Source: Fibrobacter sp. UWB5
GTDB taxonomy: Bacteria > Fibrobacterota > Fibrobacteria > Fibrobacterales > Fibrobacteraceae
Direction: 5' to 3'
NCBI RefSeq assembly: GCF_002210295.1
Contig: NZ_MWQH01000002.1
Span: 124,001 to 188,000 of the forward strand
Length of the DNA: 64,000 nt
Positions 12,109 through 63,685 of the stretch are shown here, piece after piece. The position numbers and the translations under genes are program-made. The notes beneath the pieces are model-generated. The model did no database searches, was not told where the DNA came from, and saw only the letters and a list, made by a program, of their open reading frames with translations. Every line of letters starts with the position of its first letter. Within the stretch, counting starts at the first letter, position 1.

Positions 12109-12161
12109 TGGGACCTCCGGGACTTGAACCCGGAACCCGCGGGTTATGAGTCCGCTGCTCT
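12109..12161 (-). tRNA. 3' half of host tRNA(CAU), left junction of the prophage (attL)
   Basis: On the minus strand: core AGAGCAGCGGACT, anticodon CAT, loop AA, stem CCCGC, T arm CCGGG-TTCAAGT-CCCGG, acceptor AGGTCCC and discriminator A at 12109. Joined to the half at 63652-63685 it makes a 74-nt tRNA whose acceptor stem pairs (GGGACTT with AGGTCCC, one wobble). The phage-supplied 5' flank (GGGACAGGGC, about 12162-12171) lacks most of the D arm, so this junction is not a normal tRNA. Elongator Met or lysidine-type Ile2 cannot be told apart. Confidence 0.85.
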
Positions 12162-15013: not shown

Positions 15014-15631
15014 GTGGAAAAATTTTTGGCGCTGACGGAAGAAAAGAAAATGACGATCCTGAACGCAGCACTTCAGTGCTTCGGAAAATTTGGTTATGAA
15101 AAAGCATCCGTCAATGATATTGCAGTGGCTGCTCATATCTCCAAGGCATCCATGTTTCAGTATTTCGGAAGCAAAAAACAGCTCTATATTTATCTGCTGG
15201 AATACTGTAAAAAGGTCATTGAAGAAATATTTGAAAAAGCACATCTGGATTCCAAAACGGATTTGTTCGACAGGATCCTGGCATCCAGCCGCATGGAAAT
15301 GGAGAGCTTCCAAAATCAGCCCTTCACCCTGCAGTTTATTACCAGCGTCTGGGAAGAAACTTCTCCCGAAGTAGCCGATGCGCTGGTGATTCTGACAGAG
15401 GAAGCCTGCAGCTTCAGAAACGATATGGTTCTTCGGGAGGAGGACGCTTTGAAATTCAAAAACCCGGAGGATGCCCGGCCGGTATTTCAGATGCTGCTTC
15501 TGATGGGCGAGGGATATGCGGCCCGGTACCGTGGGGCAAATGCTTTTGACTTTGAGACCGTCATGGATGATTTTGAGAAGAACATCGCAATTCTGCGGAA
15601 AAATTTTTATAAGGAGGAGTATCTGAAATGA
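15014..15631 (+). CDS. TetR/AcrR family transcriptional regulator
   Basis: 205 residues, GTG start at 15014 after a GGCAGGGA ribosome site. The N-terminal helix-turn-helix is typical of TetR (ILNAALQCFGKFGYEKASVN, then ISKASMFQYFGSKKQLY). The C-terminal part is a ligand-sensing domain. Its stop overlaps the start of the ABC ATPase gene (ATGA), so it heads the exporter operon and probably represses it through the paired operators at 14944 and 14976. The ligand is unknown. Confidence 0.92.
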   Translation: MEKFLALTEEKKMTILNAALQCFGKFGYEKASVNDIAVAAHISKASMFQYFGSKKQLYIYLLEYCKKVIEEIFEKAHLDSKTDLFDRILASSRMEMESFQNQPFTLQFITSVWEETSPEVADALVILTEEACSFRNDMVLREEDALKFKNPEDARPVFQMLLLMGEGYAARYRGANAFDFETVMDDFEKNIAILRKNFYKEEYLK

Positions 15632-16515
15632 GCGAGCCAATCATTGTTTTGGAAAAGCTGACCAAGCACTATGGGAAACATCGGGGAATTGACGGACTTA
15701 GCTTCTCTGTTGACCAGGGCGAGTTTTTCGGCTTCATTGGCCCAAACGGTGCGGGAAAATCCACCACCATCCGCACCCTGATGGGCCTGATCCATCCCAG
15801 CGGCGGCAGCGCATCTATTTTCGGCCTGGACTGCCAGACCAAGGCCAGTGTCATTGCCAGAGATGTGGGCTATCTTCCCAGCGAAAACAGCTATTATGAA
15901 AACATGAAGGTGCGGGAACTGCTGCAATACAGCGCAGACCTGTACGGCATGAATTGCGAAACGAAAATGTATGAGCTCTCCGAGCGCCTCAATCTGGATC
16001 TGACCCGGAAAATCGCAGACCTGTCTCTGGGCAACAAGAAGAAGGTGGGGATCGTGTCTGCCGTCATGACCTCGCCCAAGCTGCTGATCATGGACGAACC
16101 CACCAGCGGCTTAGACCCGTTGATCCAGCAGGCTTTCTACGATATTCTGAAGGAGGAGAACAGCCGGGGAACCACCATTTTCTTCTCCTCCCATGTCCTC
16201 AGTGAGGTGCAGAAGCTGTGTGACCGGGTGGCGATCTTAAAAGAGGGCAAGCTCGTGGGCATTCAGTCCATCCGAGAGCTGCGGGAAAGCGGCTATAAAA
16301 AGGTCAGCCTTACCGCTGAAACGGCCATCCCCCGTGAGTTCTGGGGCCTGCCCGGCATTGCCAACTACACCGAGAGTCCTGACAAGACCTCTGTTTCCTT
16401 TGTGTATAACGGCAATATCACGGCGATCATTGACAAGCTTCACCTGCTGCATTTGGACGATGTGCTTTTGGAAGAACCCTCTTTGGAGGAGATCTTCCTG
16501 CACTACTATGCGTAA
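15628..16515 (+). CDS. ABC transporter ATP-binding protein
   Basis: 295 residues. Walker A GPNGAGKST (residues 38-46), a degenerate signature LSLGNKKKVG, Walker B LLIMDEPTSGLDP and the switch histidine SSHVLSEVQ are all present. It has the layout of ABC-2 type exporter ATPases (drug, bacteriocin or lipid export). It is second in the TetR-ABC-permease-permease operon and starts within the TetR stop. Cytoplasmic, expected to work with the two permeases that follow. A Clostridial origin is inferred from sequence style. Confidence 0.93.
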   Translation: MSEPIIVLEKLTKHYGKHRGIDGLSFSVDQGEFFGFIGPNGAGKSTTIRTLMGLIHPSGGSASIFGLDCQTKASVIARDVGYLPSENSYYENMKVRELLQYSADLYGMNCETKMYELSERLNLDLTRKIADLSLGNKKKVGIVSAVMTSPKLLIMDEPTSGLDPLIQQAFYDILKEENSRGTTIFFSSHVLSEVQKLCDRVAILKEGKLVGIQSIRELRESGYKKVSLTAETAIPREFWGLPGIANYTESPDKTSVSFVYNGNITAIIDKLHLLHLDDVLLEEPSLEEIFLHYYA

Positions 16516-16528
16516 GGAGGTGTCAGGC

Positions 16529-17323
16529 ATGGTCATTTTGAAATATGAACTGAGAAGGCATCGAACCTATATCCTGGGCTGGGCCATCGCCTTGGCTGCG
16601 TGCATCTTTTTCATGACACCGACTTATTACAGCTTTCTGGATGCGGCCTCCGTGGAACTCTTTGAAACCATGGGCACCACGGACTTTTACAGGAGCGTCG
16701 GCGTATCGATGGAATACCTGACCTCTCCGCTGGGTATTTACGGGTTCCTGACCAGCTTTTTCATGATTGCCTCCGGCGTTTTCGGGATGCACTTCGGCAT
16801 TTCCATTCACACCAGAGAATGTACGGAAGGAACCTCGGAATACCTGTTTACAAAGCCCTTTCCCCGGAAAGCAATTTATTGGGCAAAGGCATGGACGGTG
16901 TTTGTCGGCGTGGCGATCGTGGGTGCGGCGTATCTGCTGGCTTCCCTTTTCGCCATGGCAACATTCCGTTCCGGAACTCCTTGGGGAGAGTTTTTCCTGA
17001 TTGCCCTGTCCCTGACCCTTGTGACGCTGTTCTTCGCTGCAATGGGGCTGATGGTGGGAGTTTTGTTTTCCCGCAACCGCAGTCCGCTGCTGACTGCCGG
17101 TTTGGTTGTGTTCGTTGAGTATTGCATTACCAGCTTCTCCAACATCGTCAGTAACCGGGCTATCAGTTTTCTGTCTCCCTACTCGTTCTTCGGAGCCGCC
17201 GAGATCTCCAAAGCCGGCTTCTATGACCTCCGGTATCTTGGGTGGTGCGTGCTGCTGTTTGCCTTGTTTTTGGTGCTTTCTTACGGTGTCTTTCTGAAAA
17301 AAGACATTCAGTTCCGCAGCTAA
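16529..17323 (+). CDS. ABC-2 type transporter permease, first subunit
   Basis: 264 residues from the ATG at 16529, preceded by AAGGAGG. About six hydrophobic segments are visible, starting with YILGWAIALAACIFFM, and a cytosolic GTSEYLFTKPFPRKAIYWAKAW loop characteristic of ABC-2 permeases. The same TSEYLFTKP motif recurs in the next gene, so the two permeases are related and probably form a heterodimer with the ATPase. Inner membrane exporter. Confidence 0.88.
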   Translation: MVILKYELRRHRTYILGWAIALAACIFFMTPTYYSFLDAASVELFETMGTTDFYRSVGVSMEYLTSPLGIYGFLTSFFMIASGVFGMHFGISIHTRECTEGTSEYLFTKPFPRKAIYWAKAWTVFVGVAIVGAAYLLASLFAMATFRSGTPWGEFFLIALSLTLVTLFFAAMGLMVGVLFSRNRSPLLTAGLVVFVEYCITSFSNIVSNRAISFLSPYSFFGAAEISKAGFYDLRYLGWCVLLFALFLVLSYGVFLKKDIQFRS

Positions 17324-17335
17324 GGAGGTGTGAAC

Positions 17336-18121
17336 ATGAAAACATTGATTAAAAATGAATTCCGCCAAACCAGAAGACTTTTGCTGATCTGGCTGGGAAT
17401 CATGCTGCTTCTGTGCGGTTTCTGCTATTTTGAGCTTCTGTCCCTACGGGACAGTCTGGATGAAATGGCAGCGATGGTCAGCCAATTTCCGAGACTGATC
17501 ATGATCATGTTCGGAGTCAAAGGCGACTTGACGACATCCACCGGCTGGTATGTGTGCATCTATTTCTGGGAGGGACTGCTGGCGTTTCCTTATGCCATGT
17601 CTTTGGGACTGTCCTGTGTGGCAAGGGAAAAGAAATTCGGAACATCGGAATACCTGTTCACAAAGCCTGTGAAGCGGAAAACCATTGTTCTGGCGAAGGT
17701 GATCGTTTCGGCAGTGAACCTGCTGGTGTTCGCCCTGTTCAGCGGCGTGTGTAATTATTTCACGATCGTTCTTCCTTTGGGCGGTCTGGATCAGCCGGGA
17801 GCGGTGCTTTCCACAACGATGGGAATGTTCTTTACCCAGACTCTCTTTTTTGCCCTGGGTCTGCTGTTTTCCAGTGTGCTTCGATCCTATAAGGCTGCGG
17901 TGCGGACAGGAACAATTTCCATGCTGGCTGCCTATGGGTTGGCCTTTACTGCCGAGTACACAGGAAATCATTTCCTGGACTACCTGACCCCATTGCGTTA
18001 TTTTGATGTGTACGAGGTAGCACTGCACGGTTTCCACCTTCCCTATCTCGTCTTAACGATCGTTGTGGCAGGTATTTGTGTCGCAGCTGCCCTGGATCAG
18101 TGGAAACGGCGGGAATTGTGA
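17336..18121 (+). CDS. ABC-2 type transporter permease, second subunit
   Basis: 261 residues from the ATG at 17336, with AAGGAGG 8 bases upstream. Six hydrophobic segments are visible and the same loop motif (GTSEYLFTKPVKRKTI) as the first permease. Last gene of the exporter operon. TetR-controlled exporters of this build often handle antimicrobial compounds; the substrate here cannot be read from sequence. Confidence 0.88.
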   Translation: MKTLIKNEFRQTRRLLLIWLGIMLLLCGFCYFELLSLRDSLDEMAAMVSQFPRLIMIMFGVKGDLTTSTGWYVCIYFWEGLLAFPYAMSLGLSCVAREKKFGTSEYLFTKPVKRKTIVLAKVIVSAVNLLVFALFSGVCNYFTIVLPLGGLDQPGAVLSTTMGMFFTQTLFFALGLLFSSVLRSYKAAVRTGTISMLAAYGLAFTAEYTGNHFLDYLTPLRYFDVYEVALHGFHLPYLVLTIVVAGICVAAALDQWKRREL

Positions 18122-19574: not shown

Positions 19575-20393
19575 ATGCTAAAGAAATTTCTTTCAGTGTA
19601 TCTCCTTTTATCTGCTTGTCTTTATGCAACGGATTATGAGTGCATAGAGCTTTATGGAGATTATAGAGTTGTAATTGAAGGGACTAAAAATACAGCGAAT
19701 CAAGTCAGTACAAAACGTTATTCAAGCTATAAATCCTGCAATCGTGATTTGGAAAATTACCTAAATGGTAAAAAGACTCCTATCGCATACGAGTGCATAG
19801 AACTTTATGGGGATTACAGAGTCGTGCTCGAAGGAACTAAAAATCCAGCAAATCAAGTTAGCTCAAAACGCTACTCAAGCTATAAATCCTGCAATCGCGA
19901 TTTGGATAATTACCTAAATGGTAAAAAGACTCCCGTTGAATATGAGTGCATAGAACTTTACGGGGATTTTAGAGTTGTGCTTGCGGGAACTAAAAATCCG
20001 GCAAATCAAGTTAGTTCAAAACGTTATTCAAACTATAAATCCTGCAATCGCGATTTGGATAATTACTTAAATGGCAAAAAGACTCCCGTTGAATACGAGT
20101 GCATAGAACTTTATGGAGATTTTAGAGTCGTGCTTGCGGGAACTAAAAATCCGGCAAATCAAGTTAGCTCGAAACGCTACTCAAACTATAAATCCTGCAA
20201 TCGCGATTTGGATAATTACTTAAATGGCAAAAAGACTCCTGTTGCATACGAGTGCATAGAACTTTATGGGGATTACAGAGTCGTGCTCGAAGGAACTAAA
20301 AATCCAGCAAATCAAGTTAGCTCATTGCGTTATACCAGCTATGGGTCTTGCAATAAAGCCTTGAATGAATACTTGTCTAAGCAAAGACAATAA
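19575..20393 (+). CDS. Secreted protein of five 51-residue repeats
   Basis: 272 residues. A signal peptide (MLKKFLSVYLLLSACLYA) is followed by five consecutive units of about 51 residues. Each starts YECIELYGD and contains GTKN.ANQVS, RY..Y.SCN and YLNGKKTP. Each unit has two conserved cysteines (positions 3 and 35), suggesting a small disulfide-bonded domain. Units 3 and 4 are nearly identical also in DNA, so copies have expanded or been homogenised recently. It is AT-rich and convergent with the late operon. A prophage moron or lysogenic conversion gene is plausible; no family recognised. Confidence 0.75.
   Translation: MLKKFLSVYLLLSACLYATDYECIELYGDYRVVIEGTKNTANQVSTKRYSSYKSCNRDLENYLNGKKTPIAYECIELYGDYRVVLEGTKNPANQVSSKRYSSYKSCNRDLDNYLNGKKTPVEYECIELYGDFRVVLAGTKNPANQVSSKRYSNYKSCNRDLDNYLNGKKTPVEYECIELYGDFRVVLAGTKNPANQVSSKRYSNYKSCNRDLDNYLNGKKTPVAYECIELYGDYRVVLEGTKNPANQVSSLRYTSYGSCNKALNEYLSKQRQ
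19634..20390 (+). repeat. Five tandem 153-bp coding repeats
   Basis: Each unit encodes YECIELYGD...KKTP. Starts are near 19637, 19790, 19943, 20096 and 20249. The last copy is divergent at its end. Confidence 0.85.
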
Positions 20394-24326: not shown

Positions 24327-25736
24327 TTAGATGAAGCTGATAAGGCCCGTCCCCATACCAGTTGCCAAGTAGTTGAGAGCCTGCGTGGTGGAATCCACGC
24401 GGTCATCGTGCGGAGCGCTTGGAAAAGAAACCAGTTCGTCGATGTAGTCGCGAACCCAGGGATGTTCTGCATCCTGCTTGGGTATATAGACGTTTCCCGC
24501 CTCGAACAGCGGGCTTACCGCAAAGGCTCGCGCTTCCTTTGAACCTTGCGGTGTGAAGGGAACGATGCCGCTAATCTTGTTGCGTAACGCACTTATAATT
24601 GCGGGGCCGTTCGCCTTGTCTTCAATGATTTTACGGATTGCCTTGGGGTGCTTCTCGCTCATACGCTGGAAAGCACGGATGCTCGAAACAAAGTCCATCT
24701 TGGCGCATACGCAGTCAATGAGGTAGAAACGCGCCCCGACCTTTCCCCAAACGGTTCCCGCTACGTTATCACTTGATGCGCTGTCCGTGAAGGTGAAGTC
24801 CCAGCTTTGTATAATCTTGTCGAAAACCTTGGGCAAGATTTCGTACTGTTGTAGCCATTCGCGCTTGATGATGCTTCCGCCGACTGGTGCGGGGTGCTGC
24901 TGGTAGAGTGCGTTCCAGTCATAGCTTCCCACGTTGATGCGGATTTTTTCGAGCATTTCAAGCGGGTATCTTTCCGGGTGCAGCGCCTCGCCGATTTTGC
25001 GGTGTGGTTCGTCCTTCTCGGCTATCGCGGGATAGTTTATGACCGTCCACTGGTCGCCATCGCCCTGTTTCATGGCGTTGAGCAGGCGCCCCGCCAGGTC
25101 GTCTTCATGCCAACGCGTAAGCGTGACGAGGACTCCCCCGCCCGGAGAAAGTCGAGTATATGCGGTAGATGTGTACCAGTCCCAAATCCTGTCTCGTATG
25201 GTGATGCTGTTCGCTTCCTGCCTGTCTTTCAGCGGGTCGTCGATGCCGAGGATTTCGCAGCCCATACCCGTGATACTTCCGCCGATACCCGTGCTTCTGA
25301 AACTGCCTTTCCTGTTGGGGATTTCGATTAGGTTTGTCGAGCGCGTGTACTTGCTTCCTCGCGGCGGCAAGGTCGTTCGCGGAAATATGCGGTGGTATTC
25401 GTTGCTTTCCATGATGCGCTGCACGTCCTTGTTTACGCGTCTGGAAAGCCCGTCGCTATAGCTGCACGCCATGAAGGAAATGTCGGGATTTACACCGAAG
25501 CACCACGCCGGAAAATGCTTGCTTACAAGTTGGCTCTTGCCATGTCGCGGCGGCATGGTGAGAATGAGACGGGGACTCTTGCGTTCCATTACGTCGGTGT
25601 AGAAACGCATGAGGCGAGCGCAGATTTCACGGTGGACCCACCCGATGCTGTAATTCGGCATCGTCGCCTTTACAAAGGCAAGAAGGTTTGTCCTTGCGAG
25701 CTGTTCAATCTGTGGTGTCATTCTCGTAAATGCCAA
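24327..25736 (-). CDS. Terminase large subunit
   Basis: 469 residues. ATPase motifs: a Walker-A-like PPRHGKSQ near residue 62 and an acidic Walker-B region GIDDPLKDRQE. The C-terminal nuclease domain has WDFTFTDS with an RNase H-type aspartate and IIEDKANGPAI. It powers DNA packaging and cuts concatemers. The start overlaps the 3' end of the small-subunit gene by 32 bases; an internal ATG at 25721 is an alternative start. Confidence 0.93.
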   Translation of the reverse strand: MAFTRMTPQIEQLARTNLLAFVKATMPNYSIGWVHREICARLMRFYTDVMERKSPRLILTMPPRHGKSQLVSKHFPAWCFGVNPDISFMACSYSDGLSRRVNKDVQRIMESNEYHRIFPRTTLPPRGSKYTRSTNLIEIPNRKGSFRSTGIGGSITGMGCEILGIDDPLKDRQEANSITIRDRIWDWYTSTAYTRLSPGGGVLVTLTRWHEDDLAGRLLNAMKQGDGDQWTVINYPAIAEKDEPHRKIGEALHPERYPLEMLEKIRINVGSYDWNALYQQHPAPVGGSIIKREWLQQYEILPKVFDKIIQSWDFTFTDSASSDNVAGTVWGKVGARFYLIDCVCAKMDFVSSIRAFQRMSEKHPKAIRKIIEDKANGPAIISALRNKISGIVPFTPQGSKEARAFAVSPLFEAGNVYIPKQDAEHPWVRDYIDELVSFPSAPHDDRVDSTTQALNYLATGMGTGLISFI

Positions 25737-26401: not shown

Positions 26402-26953
26402 ATGGCTATCACGGATTTCGAGGGATTGAGAAAAAGGTTTGACGCTCTAAAGAAGCTGAACGAAAAGACCATTCTATCGGGCTGGATAGATGGAAACGGG
26501 ACTGCACGGAAAGCGAAGGAAAATCTCGATTACAGAAAAAAGACGGGAAAGCTGACTCCCGCATTGAGGGAACCCGCTTCCAATTCGTTGATAGCGAGAA
26601 CGCTGAATTACGGCCGTAAGGAAGGGACGACGCTTGAGGGCGTCCACTACCCGGAAATTCCGGCAAGGCCCTTCCTGCGTTTTGCCATGGAACGGTTTCG
26701 CGCCATCATGCCGAAACTTGAACGCAAGTATCTCCCGCAGATAATCAACGGCGAAATGACCGTCCAGACGATGTGCGAGGAACTGGGGATGCGCTTGAAG
26801 GACTGCATCACGCTCGCGATGCGCGACAGCGAAAAGTACGAGCCGCTGCGCGATGCTACCGTGCAGGCGAGAATCAGGCAGGGACGGCCCAGTGCTACTC
26901 CGCTTATCGACACGCATCAGCTTATAGACTCCGTGACATTCGAGGTCAAGTGA
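26402..26953 (+). CDS. Neck / tail-completion protein, HK97 gp10-like, on the opposite strand
   Basis: 183 residues from the ATG at 26402; a longer frame from 26342 has no ribosome site. Family-like segments are LIARTLNYGRKEG, IPARPFLRFAMERF and PLIDTHQLIDSVTFEVK, as in HK97 gp10 / virion morphogenesis neck proteins. It is the only virion gene on the plus strand inside the leftward late block. Its 3' end overlaps the end of folE by 37 bases, convergent. How it is transcribed with the late genes is unclear. Confidence 0.7.
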   Translation: MAITDFEGLRKRFDALKKLNEKTILSGWIDGNGTARKAKENLDYRKKTGKLTPALREPASNSLIARTLNYGRKEGTTLEGVHYPEIPARPFLRFAMERFRAIMPKLERKYLPQIINGEMTVQTMCEELGMRLKDCITLAMRDSEKYEPLRDATVQARIRQGRPSATPLIDTHQLIDSVTFEVK

Positions 26954-27480
26954 GTTTTGAAGGCGCCGCTTGAGAAAAGCGTACGCGTGACCATGTTGCA
27001 GTTCTTCGCACCCCTTGCCGTCACGCAGGCGTGTTTCGCCTCGATACGAACTTCTACGTCCTTGCTTCCAGTCGCAAGCATGATTACCTCGGCAATGTCG
27101 CTGCCGATTTTCTCCTGAAGCTGCAAACGCTTTCCAACCATTTCGGAAATCCTTGCAAACTTGGAAAGCCCGAGAACTTTCCCGTGCGGGATATAGCGGA
27201 TTGAAACCTTCATGTCGTACATGAGGGCAAGATGGTGTTCGCAGTGGCTAAAAATCGTTATGTCGTCAACGGAAACGATTTGGCCGTCCGCATCCTGCTT
27301 GAAGCACTTGCCGAACTTTTTTGCAAGCTGTGCGTTCGTGTAGTTTTGACCTTCGAACATTTCAGCGTAGTATTTCGCGACACGGCGCGGCGTGTCCCTT
27401 AAACCTTCTCGGTCGGGATTGTCATTCAGCGCCTCAAGAAGCTGCCGTACAAGCTGTTCAATCTTCTTCGTCTTTATCAT
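26917..27480 (-). CDS. folE: GTP cyclohydrolase I
   Basis: 187 residues, close to the catalytic core of FolE. Zinc ligands are Cys80 and His83 in FSHCEHH and Cys152 in EAKHACVTARG. NPDREGLRDTPRRVAK and GLSKFARISEMVGKRLQLQE are family signatures. It converts GTP to dihydroneopterin triphosphate, the first step toward preQ0. It is the last gene of the operon ParB-DpdA-QueC-QueE-QueD-FolE; its start overlaps queD by 23 bases. In this setting it serves DNA modification rather than folate. Confidence 0.95.
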   Translation of the reverse strand: MIKTKKIEQLVRQLLEALNDNPDREGLRDTPRRVAKYYAEMFEGQNYTNAQLAKKFGKCFKQDADGQIVSVDDITIFSHCEHHLALMYDMKVSIRYIPHGKVLGLSKFARISEMVGKRLQLQEKIGSDIAEVIMLATGSKDVEVRIEAKHACVTARGAKNCNMVTRTLFSSGAFKTHLTSNVTESIS

Positions 27481-27799
27481 ATTGCGCCAGGTTCCCCTCG
27501 CTTTCCTGAATAACGACCTTGTGGCAGAACGGCACCTGGTCGCAAATCCATTTCGCCATATTCTCGGCTGTCGGGTTAAAATCCACCACGTCGTTGATAT
27601 AGGCGTGGTCGAGCTTTTCCATGATTATCTTCTTGATGTGCGTGAAGTCGATAACCATTCCGTCCTTGTCGAGTGTTTTGCTCTTGCAGAAAATGGTCAC
27701 AAGCCAGTTATGGCCGTGAAGGTTGCTGCACTTGCTCGGATAAGGGAGTTCCAGACGGTGCGCTCCCGAAATTTCCAGTCTCTTGCATACTCGATACAT
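27458..27799 (-). CDS. queD: 6-carboxytetrahydropterin synthase
   Basis: 113 residues, the normal size. Zinc histidines His14, His28 and His30 (the latter two in LHGHN) and the catalytic Cys24 are present, as is DHAYIND. It converts dihydroneopterin triphosphate to 6-carboxy-tetrahydropterin. Located between queE and folE in the same operon. Confidence 0.95.
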   Translation of the reverse strand: MYRVCKRLEISGAHRLELPYPSKCSNLHGHNWLVTIFCKSKTLDKDGMVIDFTHIKKIIMEKLDHAYINDVVDFNPTAENMAKWICDQVPFCHKVVIQESEGNLAQYDKDEED

Positions 27800-27853
27800 T
27801 GCTTTCTCCTATGGGAATGGGCAGGAAGAAACCCGCCCTTGAAACGAAACAGG

Positions 27854-28423
27854 CTACTCGATACCGATGAACTTGTGCCATTGAAGCGAGAGAAGCCAGC
27901 TGGGATTTTCTTGCACCAGCTTTATGCAGTGATAGAGGTTTTCCTTGACGAGGTTGTCCCCGTCGAAGCATGGGCTAAGGCACATGCGTTTCGCTGTCTT
28001 ACACGGAGTAGGCAGCGGGTCGCCAGCCTTTATGACGAAACGCAGTTCGTCGATATTGTCCGGCTCGATGCGCGAAGTCTTGGGACTACAGACGATGTAG
28101 TCGATGCCCTGCGGAACCTTGTGCGTTCCGTTTGTCTCGATGGACTTGTACCAGCCATCAAAAGCCTTTATGAGTTCGTCGTCCAGCTGCAAGGTGGGTT
28201 CACCTCCGCAGAAGGAAACGCTCCTGCAATTTCCCGCGATGGAAAGACAGGTCTGAATAATCTGTTCGGCGGTCATTTCGTCGAAGGGTTCATGGTTTGT
28301 GTCGCAGAAGGGACACTTCATATTGCATCCGCTGAAACGCACGAATACCTGCGGCGTTCCTACGCGCTTTCCTTCGCCCTGGATGCTAAAGAATATCTTG
28401 TTTATTCTGTAGATTTTCTGCAT
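27854..28423 (-). CDS. queE: 7-carboxy-7-deazaguanine synthase (radical SAM)
   Basis: 189 residues, a compact QueE. The radical-SAM cluster is C33-x3-C37-x2-C40 (SGCNMKCPFC), preceded by the QueE-typical FFSIQGEG segment, and followed by FCGGEPTLQ for SAM binding and IETNGTH. It rearranges 6-carboxy-tetrahydropterin to 7-carboxy-7-deazaguanine. Its start lies 2 bases from the queC stop. Confidence 0.95.
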   Translation of the reverse strand: MQKIYRINKIFFSIQGEGKRVGTPQVFVRFSGCNMKCPFCDTNHEPFDEMTAEQIIQTCLSIAGNCRSVSFCGGEPTLQLDDELIKAFDGWYKSIETNGTHKVPQGIDYIVCSPKTSRIEPDNIDELRFVIKAGDPLPTPCKTAKRMCLSPCFDGDNLVKENLYHCIKLVQENPSWLLSLQWHKFIGIE

Positions 28424-28425
28424 GG

Positions 28426-29085
28426 CTATTTGCCTCCCTGTGCCAAGGCGCGTTCACGCTGCTTGCAGCTGTCGCACTTGCCACAATGTGTCGAGCCGTT
28501 CTTGTAGCAGCTCCATGTGTTCCGTTCGTAGTCTATTCCCAGCTTGCGGCCAATCTTGACGATTTCTGCTTTGCTTACTGTCGAGAACGGGGCGTGAATC
28601 CTTACCTTGAAATTCGGGGACGTACCGACGTTTGCAGCCTTTTCGAACGACTTGATGAATGCGAGTGTGTCGTCGTAATACTGGCCGCTTGCAAGCCCGT
28701 TGAAGCCACCGTAAATGTCGTTTATGCAGTTGACCTCCGCGAACATGACCGCGTAGGAAAGCAGGATGCCGTTTCTGAACTCCACATAGCTTGTGGGAGT
28801 CGCTGAATCAATCTGCTCGAAACTGCGGTTCTCGCTTATCTTGGAACGGGAAATGAGGGAACACCTGCTTCCCGCAAATCCGAGGTCGATGGAAACGATT
28901 TTGTAGGGCTGTTTCAGCCGCTTCGCGTTGGATGCCGCAACCGCGATTTCCTTGCGCAGACTCTGCTTGTAGTCGAAGATAAGGCAGAAAACCTTCTTGC
29001 CCTGCTTCGTCAGCTGTTCCAGAACTGTCGTGCTGTCGATGCCGCCCGAAAGCAGCAAGATTGCGTCACATCTTGATTTTTGCAT
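28426..29085 (-). CDS. queC: 7-cyano-7-deazaguanine (preQ0) synthase
   Basis: 219 residues from the ATG at 29085, giving a start just before the PP-loop LLSGGIDST (residues 11-19). An earlier in-frame ATG at 29127 would deepen the overlap with the DpdA-like gene. The C-terminal zinc site is present (C..CGKCDSC). It converts carboxy-deazaguanine with ATP and ammonia to preQ0. No amidotransferase domain is fused, so this is ordinary QueC rather than Gat-QueC. Confidence 0.94.
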   Translation of the reverse strand: MQKSRCDAILLLSGGIDSTTVLEQLTKQGKKVFCLIFDYKQSLRKEIAVAASNAKRLKQPYKIVSIDLGFAGSRCSLISRSKISENRSFEQIDSATPTSYVEFRNGILLSYAVMFAEVNCINDIYGGFNGLASGQYYDDTLAFIKSFEKAANVGTSPNFKVRIHAPFSTVSKAEIVKIGRKLGIDYERNTWSCYKNGSTHCGKCDSCKQRERALAQGGK

Positions 29086-29806
29086 ATTGCATTGCCTTGA
29101 ACCATTGTTGTTTGTTGTGGAAGCCAAGAGTTTTCTTGTTCTTCTTGAATTTCTTGGGGAGCGAGACGACCTTCATTACACCATCCTGGAACACGAAACA
29201 CGTCCCGTATCTTTCGCCGAGGCTCCATGTGCTTGAGTCGCTGCTGTAGAAATGGAACTTGCGCAGAAGCCCCCAGTTCGTGCATCCGAGTGCGTGAACC
29301 TTGGAGCCGTTTTCTGCTGCCGTGTCGAGGAAGTAGTGAAGTGGTTTCCAGTCGTTCGCCTTGAGCCATTTGCTCGATGCTGTAAATCCGCTAAGCGAGA
29401 GCGCGACATAGGGGTAGTTCTTCACCATGTCAAGCCATCCTTCCTTCTTGCGGCCTAGATGCCAAACGGGGATGCTTTGCTTTCCCGTTGCGCGTTCTAT
29501 GCGGTTTCGGATTTGCTTGACCTTGTCTATGCCGACGATTTCGTCAATGTCCATTTCGATGAAATGGTCGATGTGTGCGCCCTTTATCCATTCGATGTAG
29601 CTGTCGATATAGCTGTCGTCAATTTTCTTGCCGCTTGCCATCGCCGTGAAGGCGCCGCTGTCCGCGATGAAGTGGTTGAACTCGCGAACATCGTTTCCCA
29701 TCAACGAGCTTTTATATTCAAAGGACGTAAGGATATTGAGTTCCTTCTTCGGGAACTTTGTGTAGAAATCTCCTACGAGTCCATCTGTCGCCATGTGTAG
29801 AAGCAT
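29066..29806 (-). CDS. DpdA-like DNA 7-deazaguanine transglycosylase (phage TGT-like)
   Basis: 246 residues, shorter than tRNA-guanine transglycosylases (about 375). TGT-like landmarks: FIADSGAFTAM (residues 46-56, matching the SDSGGFQ substrate loop), an acidic strand FIEMDIDEIVG (82-92), SGFTAS and VHALGCTNWG (matching HVLGIG). The CxCxxC zinc site of tRNA enzymes is absent, which fits a DNA-acting relative. Phage DpdA proteins swap guanine in DNA for a 7-deazaguanine. Overlaps queC and is coupled to the ParB-like gene (TAATG). Confidence 0.85.
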   Translation of the reverse strand: MLLHMATDGLVGDFYTKFPKKELNILTSFEYKSSLMGNDVREFNHFIADSGAFTAMASGKKIDDSYIDSYIEWIKGAHIDHFIEMDIDEIVGIDKVKQIRNRIERATGKQSIPVWHLGRKKEGWLDMVKNYPYVALSLSGFTASSKWLKANDWKPLHYFLDTAAENGSKVHALGCTNWGLLRKFHFYSSDSSTWSLGERYGTCFVFQDGVMKVVSLPKKFKKNKKTLGFHNKQQWFKAMQYAKIKM

Positions 29807-30276
29807 TATTTCTCGAAGGTTTTTCCGCAGTGGGGGCAGGTGATGGTCTTGGGTTTCTTCTGTGGATTTTCTTCATCCGTCAGGAAACTGTCGAAATCCA
29901 CGTTCTCGTTCGGCAGGAATCCGAACTGTTCCAGGTCAAAGGCCGCTTCTCCGAGGAACGAAAGTTCCTCGTTGAGCTTCTGGAAATCCCAGCCGCTAAA
30001 TTCCGAGACTTTGTTGTCAGCGAGGCGGAATGCCTTAATTTGATTCGGGGTCAGGTCGTCAGCGACGATGCAGGGGACTTTTTGCAGTTCCAGCTTCTGC
30101 GCGGCGAGATAGCGTGTGTGTCCCGCGACGATTACGTTTTCCCTGTCGATGATGATGGGAACCTTGAAACCGAACTCGGAAATGCTCGCGGCCACCTTGT
30201 CAACTGCCGCCTCGTTGTTGCGCGGGTTATTCTCGTATGGCTTCAAAAGCCCGATTTCGACTTCCCGAATTTCCAT
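29806..30276 (-). CDS. ParB/Srx-fold protein heading the DNA-modification operon
   Basis: 156 residues. The N-terminal ParB-like domain includes LLKPYENNPRNN and the signature IVAGHTR (residues 49-55). A C-terminal zinc knuckle CPHCGK closes the protein. Phage ParB-fold proteins can act as nucleases or DNA-sequence recognition factors and are found beside DpdA in other phages. As first gene of the operon it may guide the transglycosylase; this is inference. The same CPHCGK motif begins the small protein at 30430. Confidence 0.85.
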   Translation of the reverse strand: MEIREVEIGLLKPYENNPRNNEAAVDKVAASISEFGFKVPIIIDRENVIVAGHTRYLAAQKLELQKVPCIVADDLTPNQIKAFRLADNKVSEFSGWDFQKLNEELSFLGEAAFDLEQFGFLPNENVDFDSFLTDEENPQKKPKTITCPHCGKTFEK

Positions 30277-41934: not shown

Positions 41935-43047
41935 CTAGAGAGTGACCGTCAGTTCGACGTTCTTTACGGTGTTGATGGAGTTCATGCGCGAGTAGCGTCC
42001 CTTGACAAGCGGCAGGTTTCGGGCCTGCACGTCCGCGCTGTAGTTTGTCTTGAGGTAGTCGTAGGTCTGCACCTTGACCGTGTAGCCGTCCATGATGTAC
42101 TGGTGGTCGGTATCTGCGGCCTTGGAGAATACCTGGAGGATTGAGGCGGCGACCGAGTTGATGCCGCTGTCGTCATAGTTGACGCCGAAGCCGTCGTTCG
42201 CCTCGCCGAGCAGCGAGTAGATTTTCGTCTGGACATTGAAGCGAATCCAGTCGTCCTTGGCGATGTTGTCGATGAAGCTCGCGGGGGACTGTTCGCCCGT
42301 GCTGTCGAGAAGGACAGTCTTTCCCGCAGTCGCGCCCATGAAAAGACGCGCCTCGCCAGCGGCGACCGTATAGACGTTGATGCAGTCCGAAACGAGCGCG
42401 TCGTACTGGGACTTGGTATAGGAATCGTATTCCACGCCCTTGACCTTCTTGTGGGCGAAGCTGCCACGCGCCGAGTCCAGTGCGCAGCGGTTCGAGACGA
42501 GTGCCGCAGCGAGGTTCCCTGCTCCCGCGTGCTGGTAGAGTGCCACGCGGTCGCTGGTGCTCGCGACAAGCGCCTGGGCGAGCGCCCTGATGGAGGCGAA
42601 GTCCGTGGAGGTGTCGTTGAGTTCCAGGTGGACAATCTTGAAGTTCGCGCCGAGATAGCCGTTCCAGCCGCCGTTTCCCGTGAAAGCGGACGCGGAGGGG
42701 ATTGAGCTGTCACCGAACTTGGCGACGATGTGGTAGAAGTTGAGTTTGGCGGCTTCCGCAGCCTTTACCGCGTCAAGGGCGTCGGAGAAGGAGTCCGCGT
42801 TGATGGCGACGATTTTCGCGGGGCAGGCGTCCTGTGCGAACGCGCTCTCGACCATGCCGTAGAGCAGGGAGTCCGTGCCGAAAACTTCCGCATCCTCGGC
42901 GGATGAACATTCGAGGAAGTCGGGCGGGTTTTCCGCCTCGCTGGAGGCGGGGCCTACCAGCGCAAGCGTGTTCACGCTTGTCGTCGAGACGGTTGAAATC
43001 GCCTCGTTTATGCTTATCTTGACGATTGAGTCGATTATCTGGGCCAT
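41935..43047 (-). CDS. Tail sheath protein, DUF3383 family
   Basis: 370 residues. IDSIVKISINEAISTVST, ALVGPASSE and the C-terminal GRYSRMNSINTVKNVELTV match DUF3383 sheaths. Its presence shows a contractile tail. Confidence 0.88.
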   Translation of the reverse strand: MAQIIDSIVKISINEAISTVSTTSVNTLALVGPASSEAENPPDFLECSSAEDAEVFGTDSLLYGMVESAFAQDACPAKIVAINADSFSDALDAVKAAEAAKLNFYHIVAKFGDSSIPSASAFTGNGGWNGYLGANFKIVHLELNDTSTDFASIRALAQALVASTSDRVALYQHAGAGNLAAALVSNRCALDSARGSFAHKKVKGVEYDSYTKSQYDALVSDCINVYTVAAGEARLFMGATAGKTVLLDSTGEQSPASFIDNIAKDDWIRFNVQTKIYSLLGEANDGFGVNYDDSGINSVAASILQVFSKAADTDHQYIMDGYTVKVQTYDYLKTNYSADVQARNLPLVKGRYSRMNSINTVKNVELTVTL

Positions 43048-44743: not shown

Positions 44744-45661
44744 TTACAGGCCGTCGGCGTATGCGACGGCGTTGATGTTCTTGAACGCAACACCGCCGAT
44801 TCTCGCGTAGCAGGGAACCATGTAGTGCAGCGATTTCTTCTGCGGTTCATCCTGCTTGAACGGGATGGGGATGCAGCGCGTAAGGACACTGGGACTGTAC
44901 TTGTAGATAACGGCTCGCGTGGTGCCGCCTTCGCCAGCTTCGTCCAGCTTGGCACATTCTTTCCAGTTGACAAGTCCCTGGCTCGCGAAAACCTTCTTGA
45001 GGTATTCGAGGACGGTCAAGTCGCCGCCCTTCTCGTCCTTCGGGGTAGTGGACAGATAGACGAAAGCGTCGTGGGGCAACAGAACCGTGTCGGCCTTGAT
45101 GGTGCGTCTGGTGTTGTTGCGAACGGTGTCAATCATGGCCTGGAATGTGGCGATGATTTCGAGCAGCGTCTTACCCTTGATGGAAGTGCCGCCGCTTGCG
45201 CCAGTAGGCACGATTACCATCGGCACGTTGGCGTTGTTGAGGAAGCCCGTGGTGTTCGCGTCCTTGTCGCCGACAAACAGCACCTCGTCCACCTTTTCGT
45301 CAATCTTGCGACGGGCCGTTTCAGCCTCGTCACGGGAAAGGTCGATTCCGGCGGTGAGCCACTGCATGAGTTCAAATTCGCTGTAGCCGTAGGACACGCC
45401 GTATTCGCGAATGTCATTGGTCTTGAGTTCCAGCGCACGGGAAACGGGCGGCAAGTCTTCCGCATAGTCCGAAATGAGCTTGGCGACGCCCATTTCGGAA
45501 AGAACCTTGTAGGTCCAGGTGCGGAGCCACTGTCCTATTCCAGCCTGGGGAGGAATGAACGAGAGCGCGTCAAGGGACTCGCGTTCCAGTCCGTAGGTCT
45601 CGTTGATAATCTGGTTGAACAGACGGGAGAGTTTGTTCAGTTCGCTATCTTGAAAAATCAT
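44744..45661 (-). CDS. Major capsid protein, DUF2184 family
   Basis: 305 residues. Segments GIGQWLRTWTYKVLSEMGVAKL, RALELKTNDIREYGVSYGYS and the C-terminal MVPCYARIGGVAFKNINAVAYADG match DUF2184, an HK97-fold capsid group of KPP10-like myoviruses. Strong AAAGGAG ribosome site. Confidence 0.9.
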   Translation of the reverse strand: MIFQDSELNKLSRLFNQIINETYGLERESLDALSFIPPQAGIGQWLRTWTYKVLSEMGVAKLISDYAEDLPPVSRALELKTNDIREYGVSYGYSEFELMQWLTAGIDLSRDEAETARRKIDEKVDEVLFVGDKDANTTGFLNNANVPMVIVPTGASGGTSIKGKTLLEIIATFQAMIDTVRNNTRRTIKADTVLLPHDAFVYLSTTPKDEKGGDLTVLEYLKKVFASQGLVNWKECAKLDEAGEGGTTRAVIYKYSPSVLTRCIPIPFKQDEPQKKSLHYMVPCYARIGGVAFKNINAVAYADGL

Positions 45662-52084: not shown

Positions 52085-53821
52085 ATGGCAAAATCACAGA
52101 CTGAAATGTTTGAGTTTAATCGGGAACCAATAAAAGGGTTTCCTGAGCTGCGGTGGGCCGGTAAACGCCCTTTTACAGGAACATCTTATTATCCTGCTCA
52201 ACTAAAAGAAACTCATGGACATCCTTCTGATGATGGCTGGATGAATAAGTTATACTGGGGTGATAATTTACAGGTCATGAGCCATTTGTTAAAGGAATGT
52301 AGAGGTCAGGTCGATTTGATTTATATAGACCCTCCCTTTGATTCGAAGGCTGATTATAAGAAAACCATTTCTTTGAGAAATCAAAGTGCAGAAAGTGATT
52401 CTTCCAATTTTGAAGAAAAACAATATGGCGATATTTGGACAAATGATGAATATCTCCAATTTATGTACGAGCGTCTAATTCTCTGTAGAGAATTGTTGAG
52501 TGATAAGGGAAGCATTTATTTGCATTGTGATTGGCATAAAAGCCATTATTTACGCAACATAATGGATGAAATCTTTGGAATTGAGTGTTTCCAGAACGAA
52601 ATTTCATGGTTGTATAAAACAGGTGGAGCATCCAAAACTTGCTGGGCAAGGAAACATGACACACTGCTTTTTTACTCAAAAAAGAATAGTGGGTTTACGT
52701 TCAACCCATTGCAAGAACGGTCATATATGATGCATAAGTATGGCTTTAAAAAAAGTGACTTTAAAATTGACCCTGAAAATGGATTGCAGTATTCAATGGT
52801 ATATTGCCGTGATGTATGGGAAATGCCTTCTGTTGGTTCTGCAACAGACGAACGAGTAGACTATCCGACACAAAAACCAGAAGTTCTTCTTGAACGAATT
52901 ATAAAGGCGTCGTCTAATCCTGGTGATGTTGTGTTTGACTGTTTTATGGGCAGTGGAACAACCCAAACTGTAGCAATGAAACTTGGCCGAAAATTTATAG
53001 GTGCAGATATAAATTTGGGTGCTATTCAAACAACAACAAAAAGACTAATAAGCACAGCGTCTAAATGCATGGCAGACAAAAATTTACTATCCATTCAGAC
53101 ATATACAGGTTTTGAAGTCTACAATGTAAACGATTATGATTTCTTCCGTAATGAACTTGAAGCGAAAAAGTTGATAATCGAGGCGCTAGGAATGCAAGCC
53201 CTCCCAGAAAATAGTCTCTGGGATGCGGAGTTTGATGGTCGAATGGTTGCCATTCTTGGCATAAACAGAATTGCTACAGCTAGCGAGTTTGAAAAGATTG
53301 TTGCCAACATTGATATTTCCAGTTGGCAAAAGAAACAAAATGAAAATCCAGGCAAACCAGTTGAAAAGATTACATTTGTTTGCATGGGCCACGACCCGAA
53401 TTTGGAGGCGATGTTCCATGAAAAAATGGCCAGTTTGGGTTTTGTTGTTGATTTGGAAATAATCGACATCCTTCGTGACAAAAAGGAGTTGACATTTAAA
53501 CGCGATGCTGACGCCAAAATATCTATTGCTAATGGAAAACTCTCTATTGAGCAATTCTATCCGATGAACTTGCTTCAGAAATTGAGCTTCGAAAAGCAGG
53601 ATGTTGAAGATTGGAAGGAACTTGTAGATAGTGTCATGATTGACTGGAATTATGATGGTGTTGCGTTCGCTCCTGCACTTACTGATATTCCAGCGAAGAA
53701 TGCTCTTGTAAAGGGAATTTATAACGTTCCCGAAGATGCAGGCACAATCCATGTGAAAATTACGGACCTCATTAGCGAAAGCTGGGAAGGCTCCTTTAGC
53801 GTAGAAGGGAGTAAGCTCTAA
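52085..53821 (+). CDS. Type III restriction-modification methyltransferase (Mod), adenine-specific
   Basis: 578 residues from the ATG at 52085, 11 bases after the helicase stop. Motif IV DPPF is at 82-85 and comes before the SAM motif FDCFMGSGTT (near 284), the beta-class order typical of type III Mod proteins. The C-terminal 200 residues probably contact the Res subunit. It methylates an asymmetric site on one strand at N6-adenine. The recognition sequence cannot be predicted. Confidence 0.9.
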   Translation: MAKSQTEMFEFNREPIKGFPELRWAGKRPFTGTSYYPAQLKETHGHPSDDGWMNKLYWGDNLQVMSHLLKECRGQVDLIYIDPPFDSKADYKKTISLRNQSAESDSSNFEEKQYGDIWTNDEYLQFMYERLILCRELLSDKGSIYLHCDWHKSHYLRNIMDEIFGIECFQNEISWLYKTGGASKTCWARKHDTLLFYSKKNSGFTFNPLQERSYMMHKYGFKKSDFKIDPENGLQYSMVYCRDVWEMPSVGSATDERVDYPTQKPEVLLERIIKASSNPGDVVFDCFMGSGTTQTVAMKLGRKFIGADINLGAIQTTTKRLISTASKCMADKNLLSIQTYTGFEVYNVNDYDFFRNELEAKKLIIEALGMQALPENSLWDAEFDGRMVAILGINRIATASEFEKIVANIDISSWQKKQNENPGKPVEKITFVCMGHDPNLEAMFHEKMASLGFVVDLEIIDILRDKKELTFKRDADAKISIANGKLSIEQFYPMNLLQKLSFEKQDVEDWKELVDSVMIDWNYDGVAFAPALTDIPAKNALVKGIYNVPEDAGTIHVKITDLISESWEGSFSVEGSKL

Positions 53822-62342: not shown

Positions 62343-62375
62343 CAAAATAAGCTCGCTTTCGCGAGCCTTTTTTAT
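62343..62375. terminator. Bidirectional terminator between lipoprotein and integrase genes
   Basis: AAGCTCGC-TTTC-GCGAGCCTT with A and T tracts on either side. Confidence 0.85.
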
Positions 62376-63403
62376 TTCTTGTTGAGAGCCTTTTCCAGGT
62401 CGTCTTGCAGCAGGTGACTGTAGGTGTCCAAAGTCTGGCGCACGTCTTCATGGCGCATCAACTGCTGGACGATTTTCGGGCCAACGCCGGAACGGATAAG
62501 GTTGGAGGCGAAAGAGTGTCTCCACTTGTGATTTGTCGCATCGTCGCTCTTATATCCCGCAGCTTCCACTGCAATTCGCAGCGTTTCGTTGCACCTGTCC
62601 GCATGGTCGAAACGGGCTGTCGCGAACATGCCGTCTTTCAGCTTGCCGTAGCGCTTGATTTCCGCCTTGAGGCGGTCGCTAATCGGGAGGAACGCTTCCT
62701 TGTCGCCTTTGCCGACGACGCGCATCTTTCCGTCCTCCTGGATGCACGACGGTCCAAATCGGCAAGCCTCCGCATGACGCAAACCAGCGAAAGCCATGAC
62801 CGACCAGAACAGTCTAAATTCCGGGTCGGGCGCGTTGTCGAGAATTTTTTCAATCTGGTCGGGAGTCCAGAACGCCTTGGCGCGTTTCGGAACCTTGGGG
62901 AACGCCACGTCGCGGAACGGGTTGTAGTCGCCCAGGTCGTAAATCTTAGCCGCCCACTGGCAGAACTGGCTTGTGCAGCGCACCATTTCGTGCTGGGACT
63001 TGGGCGCGTACCTTTCGGACAGCCACACCGCCCAGTTCGTCGCCTGTTCGGCATCGAAGCGCATGAGCGTCTTGATGCCGTTTGCGTCAAGCCATTCCCT
63101 GAATGTCTTGAGTCGGTACTTGTAAGCGAGGTGAGTCTTGGAGTCGTCGCCCTTGGACGCCGCGACGGAATCCAGGAACTTCGGGAGCGCCTCGTCGAAG
63201 CCCCTGTCCTTCGGCATGAGCTTGCGGCGGATTTCCTCGGGCATGAACCTGGCCGCGTTCATCATGTTCAGCCATTCCTGTGCGTCGCTCTTGCGCTTGG
63301 TTTTAAGGCTTATGTAGGAGAACTCGCCATCCTCCGCGATTCTCCCGTACCATGTAAGGTTGCCGCGATACTTGTACCGCTGCGATATGCTGTAGCTTTT
63401 CAT
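62372..63403 (-). CDS. int: Tyrosine integrase
   Basis: 343 residues. Catalytic set: Arg209 (AGLRHAEA), a lysine in the VVGKGDKEA turn, His292-x-x-Arg295 (NHKWRHSF), His318 (MRHED) and Tyr328 (DTYSHLL). An SAM-like core-binding domain and an N-terminal arm-binding part precede them. Placed at the right end of the prophage, 250 bases from the core. Matching arm repeats lie at 12200 and 63439. Confidence 0.96.
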   Translation of the reverse strand: MKSYSISQRYKYRGNLTWYGRIAEDGEFSYISLKTKRKSDAQEWLNMMNAARFMPEEIRRKLMPKDRGFDEALPKFLDSVAASKGDDSKTHLAYKYRLKTFREWLDANGIKTLMRFDAEQATNWAVWLSERYAPKSQHEMVRCTSQFCQWAAKIYDLGDYNPFRDVAFPKVPKRAKAFWTPDQIEKILDNAPDPEFRLFWSVMAFAGLRHAEACRFGPSCIQEDGKMRVVGKGDKEAFLPISDRLKAEIKRYGKLKDGMFATARFDHADRCNETLRIAVEAAGYKSDDATNHKWRHSFASNLIRSGVGPKIVQQLMRHEDVRQTLDTYSHLLQDDLEKALNKK

Positions 63404-63651: not shown

Positions 63652-63685
63652 AGTCCGCTGCTCTAACCAATTGAGCTAAAGTCCC
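63652..63685 (-). tRNA. 5' half of host tRNA(CAU), right junction of the prophage (attR)
   Basis: Minus strand: GGGACTT acceptor, TA, D arm GCTC-AATTGGTTA-GAGC, A, and anticodon-stem start GCGGACT, ending in the 13-bp core. After the core the phage sequence reads ATCAACCCAGCCCCG and has no T arm, so no tRNA is rebuilt here. Confidence 0.85.

Follow-up and report, generated by a model that had tools for sequence, protein, structure and literature searches.

DNA modification with 7-deazaguanines is already known from several phages. Hutinet et al. (2019) described the phage DpdA proteins and reported 2'-deoxy-7-cyano-7-deazaguanosine (dPreQ0) in Rosebush and CAjan (PMC6884629). In two members that combine DpdA with the full route to 7-cyano-7-deazaguanine (preQ0) and have no amidotransferase, dPreQ0 replaces about 30% of G, and in CAjan dpdA is needed for the modification, which protects from restriction (PMC6884629). 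A word search of the main text of that article gave no hit for ParB, DpdB, prophage, temperate or Fibrobacter. In the CRB2 paper, DpdB, a member of the ParB superfamily, is said generally to accompany DpdA (PMC6392294). The locus described here lies in a window of 64,000 nucleotides (nt) from Fibrobacter sp. UWB5 (contig NZ_MWQH01000002.1, positions 124,001 to 188,000), a term that denotes this whole stretch of DNA. It is an operon in which a ParB-fold gene and a DpdA gene precede four genes of the preQ0 pathway. The operon is genuine and complete and belongs to a known kind, in a new host and with a new lifestyle. The part that a specialist would not expect is a partner rule: phage DpdAs fall into two kinds, a short kind linked to ParB and a kind typified by Enterobacteria phage 9g that is linked to the beta clamp. 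Five DpdA subfamilies have reportedly been distinguished by Cui et al. in 2023.

The existence of the six-gene operon on the minus strand (window 26917-30276; order ParB-DpdA-QueC-QueE-QueD-FolE) was confirmed, and all six open reading frames (ORFs) are open from 30276 down to 26917 (Table 1). The ParB stop and the DpdA start overlap as TAATG at 29806. DpdA and QueC overlap by 20 nt when QueC begins at the ATG at 29085, which is preferred to the less likely TTG at 29127 that was assigned mechanically, and the QueD/FolE overlap is 23 nt. QueD matches PF01242 (8.8e-28) and TIGR03367 (93.1 bits, cut-off 89.25), and QueC matches PF06508 (3.7e-50) and TIGR00364 (153 bits, cut-off 150.3); each was aligned to a solved structure of its family. 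QueE matches the radical SAM family (1.4e-10) and phrog_2076 (1.9e-26), and its residues 4-188, nearly its full length, align with a solved QueE. The motifs seen in the sequences and alignments are CEHH and HAC in FolE, C-N-LHGH, LDH and QESE in QueD, CX3CX2C in QueE, and SGGIDST with four Cys in QueC; we take these residues to have active-site roles. One loop of QueC (GFNGLASGQYYDD) is unlike ETDFSGYPDC of both solved QueCs. The first-pass annotation, made from the letters alone, had proposed a complete route from GTP to preQ0 with its key residues, together with a DpdA-like protein and a ParB-fold protein joined to it by overlapping starts. Both proposals are borne out, with QueE falling below its NCBIfam cut-off.

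The 246-residue protein matches the PHROG family phrog_887, named queuine tRNA-ribosyltransferase. When it was used as a tblastn query, matches were found in 117 phage records, among them 9g (27.6% identity, 5e-6). It has no significant match in Pfam (including PF01702), NCBIfam or PADLOC. An alignment of 49 rows, drawn from the window and from viral contigs, was used for a structure model with a mean predicted local distance difference test score (pLDDT) of 91.6. In the VIA alignment of this model, Cap10 of the cyclic-oligonucleotide-based antiphage signalling system (CBASS; Z 15.3) and tRNA-guanine transglycosylases (TGTs) are tied on top. Among the matches listed, TGT structures reach Z 14.2-14.8 across 227-237 residues, the best being 6ygp (Z 14.8, root-mean-square deviation 3.5, 233 residues aligned). 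As modelled, the protein has the fold of a tRNA-guanine transglycosylase. The membership in the TGT/DpdA family that had been proposed from the letters withstood the structural comparison.

D49 (in DSGAF) and D190 (in SSDSSTW) of DpdA are invariant in 49/49 rows. Matched by motif and not by superposed coordinates, they would be the equivalents of D102 and D280 of TGT, a numbering with which the titles of Protein Data Bank entries with Y106 and C281 mutants agree. The protein has two Cys only (C175 and C203), and the zinc motif CXCXXC of tRNA TGT is absent. H116 is invariant in 9/9 rows that include 9g and in 49/49 rows; this would speak against DpdA2, which is defined by the absence of the conserved His, on the assumption that H116 is the equivalent of the published His196. 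The bacterial DpdA structure 7UI4 (PMC12137116) was not among the matches listed for the model, which excludes nothing. We infer that the enzyme would act on DNA instead of tRNA. It is scarcely credible that the enzymes of this operon modify a protein with the deazaguanine in the manner of type IV CBASS. Such a role would agree with the place of Cap10 at the top of the structural matches, tied with TGT, and with a weak match of Cap9 to QueC, since Cap9 and Cap10 modify a protein. However, the operon showed no gene for a CD-NTase, and the sequence matches found for the 246-residue protein are phage DpdAs.

The protein encoded upstream of DpdA was modelled with its lowest confidence at residues 121-140. 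In the VIA comparison, the model fits best to Noc and to ParB structures that contain CDP or a CTP analogue, with Z 14-15 across about 122-134 residues. Against 7bnr, Z is 15.1 with a root-mean-square deviation of 3.2 over 128 aligned residues, and the fold of the N- and M-domains is found. In an alignment of 45 rows, G52 and N88 do not vary, and R55 is present in at least 90%. The protein ends at 156 residues with a zinc-ribbon-like C-terminal tail, CPHCGKTFEK; the tails of the family are of two types, CPHCGEWFE, which is the window's type, or the longer IVLEYTEEDY...LLGL. With CTP, ParB clamps slide along DNA, and, judging from the model, the window's ParB would most likely embrace DNA in a nucleotide-dependent manner. 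It is rather unlikely, though a serious alternative, that this ParB is no clamp and instead regulates the enzyme or acts as a DpdB-like ATPase, nickase or sequence reader. The bacterial DpdB belongs to the ParB superfamily and is called an ATPase (PMC6392294, PMC12839542). In the carboxymethylcytosine paper, genes with ParBc domains lie near another phage DNA-modifying enzyme, with their role given as unknown (PMC12783734). Sulfiredoxin-type ATPases are further matches of the model, at Z about 9-11. Their scores are nevertheless below those of nucleotide-bound ParB and of Noc, which align over more residues, and the other kind of DpdA has an adjoining clamp gene and a C-terminus like a clamp motif.

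The linkage of ParB to DpdA extends well beyond Fibrobacter. From the best 80 of 182 relatives of the window's DpdA on viral contigs, four Fibrobacter loci were left out (ParB is present in all four), and 76 short-kind loci were counted. Where at least 500 nt of upstream sequence was available, 60/62 of these uncultivated loci have a ParB gene immediately upstream in the same orientation; the count is the same with a broader ParB hidden Markov model (HMM) and with an HMM seeded solely from outside these loci. By cluster, this is 48/50 at 90% identity and 37/38 at 70%. Of the two exceptions, L110 shows a longer ORF that does not match ParB, and L112 a bare ORF of 206 residues. A match to the clamp or to PolA was found in 0/76 loci, within the stretch examined, which is the scope of all such gene counts given here. 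In 45 of the 65 ParB-bearing loci, the nearest in-frame DpdA start is 4 nt inside the ParB stop (ATGA/GTGA), compared with 8/130 trials for the other two frames used as a control; no start was placed in 4 loci. Downstream sequence of 3.5 kb was available for 56 short-kind loci; QueC is present in 35 of them, and QueD, QueE and FolE in 30 each. Because of this, nearly half of them may use a host or imported precursor or have these genes further off. Three loci (L088, L094 and L131) have ParB-DpdA-QueC with no match to QueD, QueE or FolE.

A contrast set of 83 loci of the 9g kind was assembled from 7 loci and 76 more, the latter taken from the best 80 of 183. Here, ParB was found in 0/81 loci with enough upstream sequence, and a beta-clamp gene lies close downstream in 78/83 (52/54 clusters at 90% identity). 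The C-termini of the two kinds (71 distinct complete sequences of the 9g kind and 63 of the short kind) were compared with shuffles of the last 40 residues using four patterns, which were chosen after three 9g-kind C-termini had been seen. LF occurs in the last 15 residues in 67/71 of the 9g kind (shuffle mean 4.83, maximum 10) and in 2/63 of the short kind (mean 2.40). The QELF-like pattern Q[ILVMPA]?.?LF is present in 48/71 (mean 0.49, maximum 3) and 0/63 (mean 0.17), and Q..LF in 4/71 (mean 0.17) and 2/63 (mean 0.08). For Q.{1,2}[LM]F, the counts are 48/71 (mean 0.50) and 4/63 (mean 0.27, maximum 2), and since 4/63 exceeds the shuffle maximum, the short kind is not entirely free of the motif. 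The conserved terminal QELF-like peptide beside a beta-clamp gene was seen across the 9g-type loci (L148-L230). It presumably resembles the bacterial clamp-binding motif QL(S/D)LF, and the sequences suggest that 9g-type DpdA would be docked on the clamp via its C-terminus.

The same division is seen in further phage records. Twenty-three were examined, two of them unannotated: 7 came from the tblastn matches and 16 were hand-picked for diversity among the best 60 of 165. Eleven have ParB without a clamp and 12 a clamp without ParB (that of ZHS by annotation only). In 10/12 clamp records, DpdA ends in LF or has LF close beside its last residue, M39 ending in FF and ZHS in LW, and LF is in the last 15 residues in 1/11 ParB records (phiFN37). 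In ten of the latter, ParB is upstream of DpdA, with one gene between them in Cracklewink, Typha, Funsized and StAugustine; in Mufasa8, it is downstream. Because the position varies in this way, the pair has survived rearrangement. Additional scans with the DpdAs of Sonali and Cracklewink gave 1 and 2 loci only, which are outside all counts. It is improbable that ParB is a passenger of the packaging region that stands beside DpdA by chance. The operon does lie directly before the terminase here and in several relatives. Nevertheless, ParB stays beside DpdA in phiFN37 and Sonali, which have no terminase annotated within the stretch, it overlaps DpdA in most loci, and it is missing from every 9g-kind locus counted. 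A tree of 49 DpdAs places each partner label on one side of a single branch (support 95/92); the finer order is unsure because of several long branches, that of the window included. No statement of this partner split was found in the open-licence literature searched on DpdA, ParB, 7-deazaguanine and clamps. As separate observations, phiFN37 (L003) carries three ParB-like genes within 12.6 kb, of which one precedes DpdA and another follows an annotated PAPS reductase gene, and it has a queuosine precursor transporter but no match to a preQ0 gene; Microbacterium phage Megan (L237) has a tandem DpdA pair behind one ParB-like gene.

We consider it likely that the operon serves to exchange guanine for preQ0 in phage DNA, with ParB as the DNA-loading partner of DpdA. 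FolE, QueD, QueE and QueC would convert GTP to preQ0, and DpdA would then swap guanine in phage DNA for preQ0. The resulting dPreQ0 would block host restriction and is probably an armour against the DNA-cutting enzymes of the host. The ParB protein, whose gene overlaps the DpdA start, would be the DNA-loading half of the enzyme: embracing DNA in a nucleotide-dependent manner, it would contact and carry the small DpdA, which is without the C-terminal extension of other DpdAs. A DNA clamp can be proposed for both kinds because the ParB model fits nucleotide-bound ParB and Noc, and because the 9g kind adjoins a clamp gene and has an LF-type C-terminus. It is an even chance that, more generally, phage DpdAs work only if a sliding clamp holds them on DNA, which would be the replication clamp, bound through the QELF-like peptide, in the 9g kind and an own ParB in the short kind. 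The Fibrobacter operon would be the minimal ParB form, and the same ParB device may serve other phage base-modifying enzymes.

Several results weigh against this reading. QueE is a short protein that scores 112.8 bits against TIGR04508, below the NCBIfam cut-off of 240. With Foldseek alone, no match fell below 0.001 and TGT came at 0.005, and hhalign of DpdA (a shallow profile) with four host TGTs gave a probability of 1.3%; neither was decisive, and the fold assignment was made because the VIA alignment was. The window's ParB is without the dimer domain that chromosomal ParB has at its C-terminus. QueD, QueE and FolE are each missing in 26/56 short-kind stretches, and a search of the 76 short-kind loci for a fusion of ParB with DpdA found none. 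The neighbouring PolA has the same C-terminal ending as 9g-kind DpdA in 0/68 cases, which counts against a simple clamp-motif reading, unless PolA docks by another motif. Finally, the single-branch split means that the linkage to ParB or to the clamp is old and conserved, not repeatedly invented.

The base itself is most likely preQ0. The absence of an amidotransferase, predicted from the letters, holds, and the operon carries the genes of that group of Hutinet et al. which combines DpdA with a complete preQ0 route; this gene set gave dPreQ0 in Rosebush and CAjan (PMC6884629). QueF, which had been called absent, is indeed missing from the operon, although the cell has it (G000:C1:560849). Since the host has its own QueF, dPreQ1 is possible: QueF could make preQ1, or preQ0 could be hydrolysed to the amide, so that the DNA would carry dPreQ1 or the amide form dADG. 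Salmonella phage 7-11, which has DpdA alone, carried a little dADG (PMC6884629). However, the E. coli host of CAjan has a QueF match, and yet dPreQ0 and no dPreQ1 above the limit is reported there (PMC6884629). Another final base is unlikely in the window's phage. The evasion of restriction by known DpdA phages, mentioned in the first-pass annotation, agrees with the dpdA-dependent protection of CAjan (PMC6884629).

DpdA is present in 6/60 genomes searched, the window's host included. TGT is found in 41/41 genomes of the genus, with two copies in the window's host, whose genome (rated 100% complete) also carries QueA. The sole matches to QueC, the PTPS family and QueE in this genome are the prophage genes; QueE was queried with the phage protein and not with a family model. 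At least two TGT matches (some of them fragments) were seen in 29/41 Fibrobacter genomes, and many genomes are without QueC and QueE; one TGT perhaps serves queuine salvage. It is highly improbable that the operon mainly supplies the host with preQ0 for tRNA queuosine, that is, by lysogenic conversion. The host's QueF, QueA, two TGTs and sole prophage-borne QueC, QueD and QueE would suit such a role, but DpdA and ParB have no place in the queuosine pathway. In addition, a second, different QueC or QueE is held by 6/7 carriers (G005, G008, G030, G035, G036 and G062), counted by hand as the six genomes with DpdA and G062, which has a phage-type QueE (86% identical) with QueC adjoining. The exception is the window's host, so dependence on the viral preQ0 route is a peculiarity of this strain and no rule. 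An anticorrelation of the prophage with other Que genes was looked for across the genomes and was not found.

The operon sits in a contractile, temperate Fibrobacter prophage of about 51.5 kb; the first-pass annotation had supposed a temperate contractile phage of Fibrobacterota. Genes for the sheath, baseplate, portal, head, terminase, capsid and a tyrosine integrase were found. In one relative genome (L057, G004), the site is empty: the left flank up to 12161 joins the right flank from 63644, which places the insert between 13-bp repeats (Table 1). An 18-bp repeat (12200/63439) was considered as the att site and rejected, since this empty site indicates the 13-bp pair. Copies of the prophage with 89-100% identity occur in 5 genome records (four Fibrobacter, one Fibrobacterales) and 4 viral contigs. 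A low-GC prophage stretch (window 49152-52073 and 53821-56565) encodes a UvrD helicase that contains a PD-(D/E)XK nuclease domain, as well as a ResIII/TnsA-like protein; the two may form a defence pair. The stretch 15050-18121, which lies within the prophage bounds and gave no alignment to L053 and L054, two related prophages, has a TetR-like regulator, recognized by eye, and an ABC transporter (PF00005). A secreted-looking protein of near-identical repeats (ECIELYGDYRVV...) was noticed by eye at 19575-20393.

Table 1. Coordinates of the operon genes and of prophage landmarks in the window, with the evidence for each.
Feature	Position	Strand	Evidence
ParB-fold gene, 156 aa	29806..30276	-	PF02195 9.8e-9, phrog_620 1.9e-54; model pLDDT 87
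DpdA, short kind, 246 aa	29066..29806	-	phrog_887 7.6e-40; predicted TGT fold; D49 and D190
QueC, preQ0 synthase, 219 aa from ATG	28426..29085	-	TIGR00364 153 bits; aligned with 3bl5
QueE, 7-carboxy-7-deazaguanine synthase, 189 aa	27854..28423	-	radical SAM, phrog_2076, 4njg
QueD, 6-carboxytetrahydropterin synthase, 113 aa	27458..27799	-	TIGR03367 above cut-off; aligned with 4ntm
FolE, GTP cyclohydrolase I, 187 aa	26917..27480	-	PF01227 3.6e-54
Terminase large subunit, downstream of operon	24327..25736	-	phrog_38 1.3e-121
Contractile tail sheath	41935..43047	-	phrog_205 3.8e-29
Major capsid protein	44744..45661	-	PF09950 9e-52
Tyrosine integrase	62372..63403	-	PF00589 3.7e-19
Left prophage end, 13-bp direct repeat paired with 63652	12149..12161	.	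empty site of one relative
Right prophage end, 13-bp direct repeat paired with 12149	63652..63664	.	empty site of one relative

In the literature found, the way in which DpdA reaches DNA and the role of the phage ParB partner are not settled. The clean split into ParB-linked and clamp-linked enzymes makes the matter experimentally simple. Moreover, 7-deazaguanine DNA is now predicted for a temperate phage of Fibrobacter, a rumen and gut genus that degrades fibre, and the window's host is a genome whose sole QueC, QueD and QueE matches are viral.

Among known systems, Mycobacterium phage PenguinLover67 and Gordonia phage Sour have the same set of genes, in the order ParB, DpdA, QueC, QueD, QueE and FolE, before the terminase. 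Their DpdAs have 329 and 357 residues compared with 246 in the window and their hosts are different; the window's phage is contractile and resides in Fibrobacter, whereas the actinobacteriophages with this operon are, we assume, siphophages. Rosebush, in which dPreQ0 was measured (PMC6884629), is placed with these actinobacteriophages. An unverified gut phage clone (MT835752) has ParB-DpdA-QueC-QueD-QueE-FolE-terminase with a DpdA of 247 residues; QueD and QueE are swapped relative to the window, and its DpdA is about 35% identical. Enterobacteria phage 9g and CAjan share DpdA and preQ0 genes with the window. However, their DpdAs (about 306-317 residues) have an LF-type C-terminus, a beta clamp and a DNA polymerase are close, and there is no ParB within the stretch; 9g also carries a Gat-QueC fusion, according to the literature. 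The bacterial Dpd defence cluster likewise joins a TGT-like DpdA to a ParB-superfamily partner, DpdB (PMC6392294, PMC12839542). It is a defence island with more dpd genes, and a PADLOC scan gave no Dpd-named match. With tRNA-guanine transglycosylase, the window's DpdA shares the predicted fold and both Asp motifs but not the zinc motif. With the ParB/Noc clamps, the window's ParB has the N- and M-domain fold in common, and it differs from them in having a short CPHCG tail in place of a C-terminal dimer domain.

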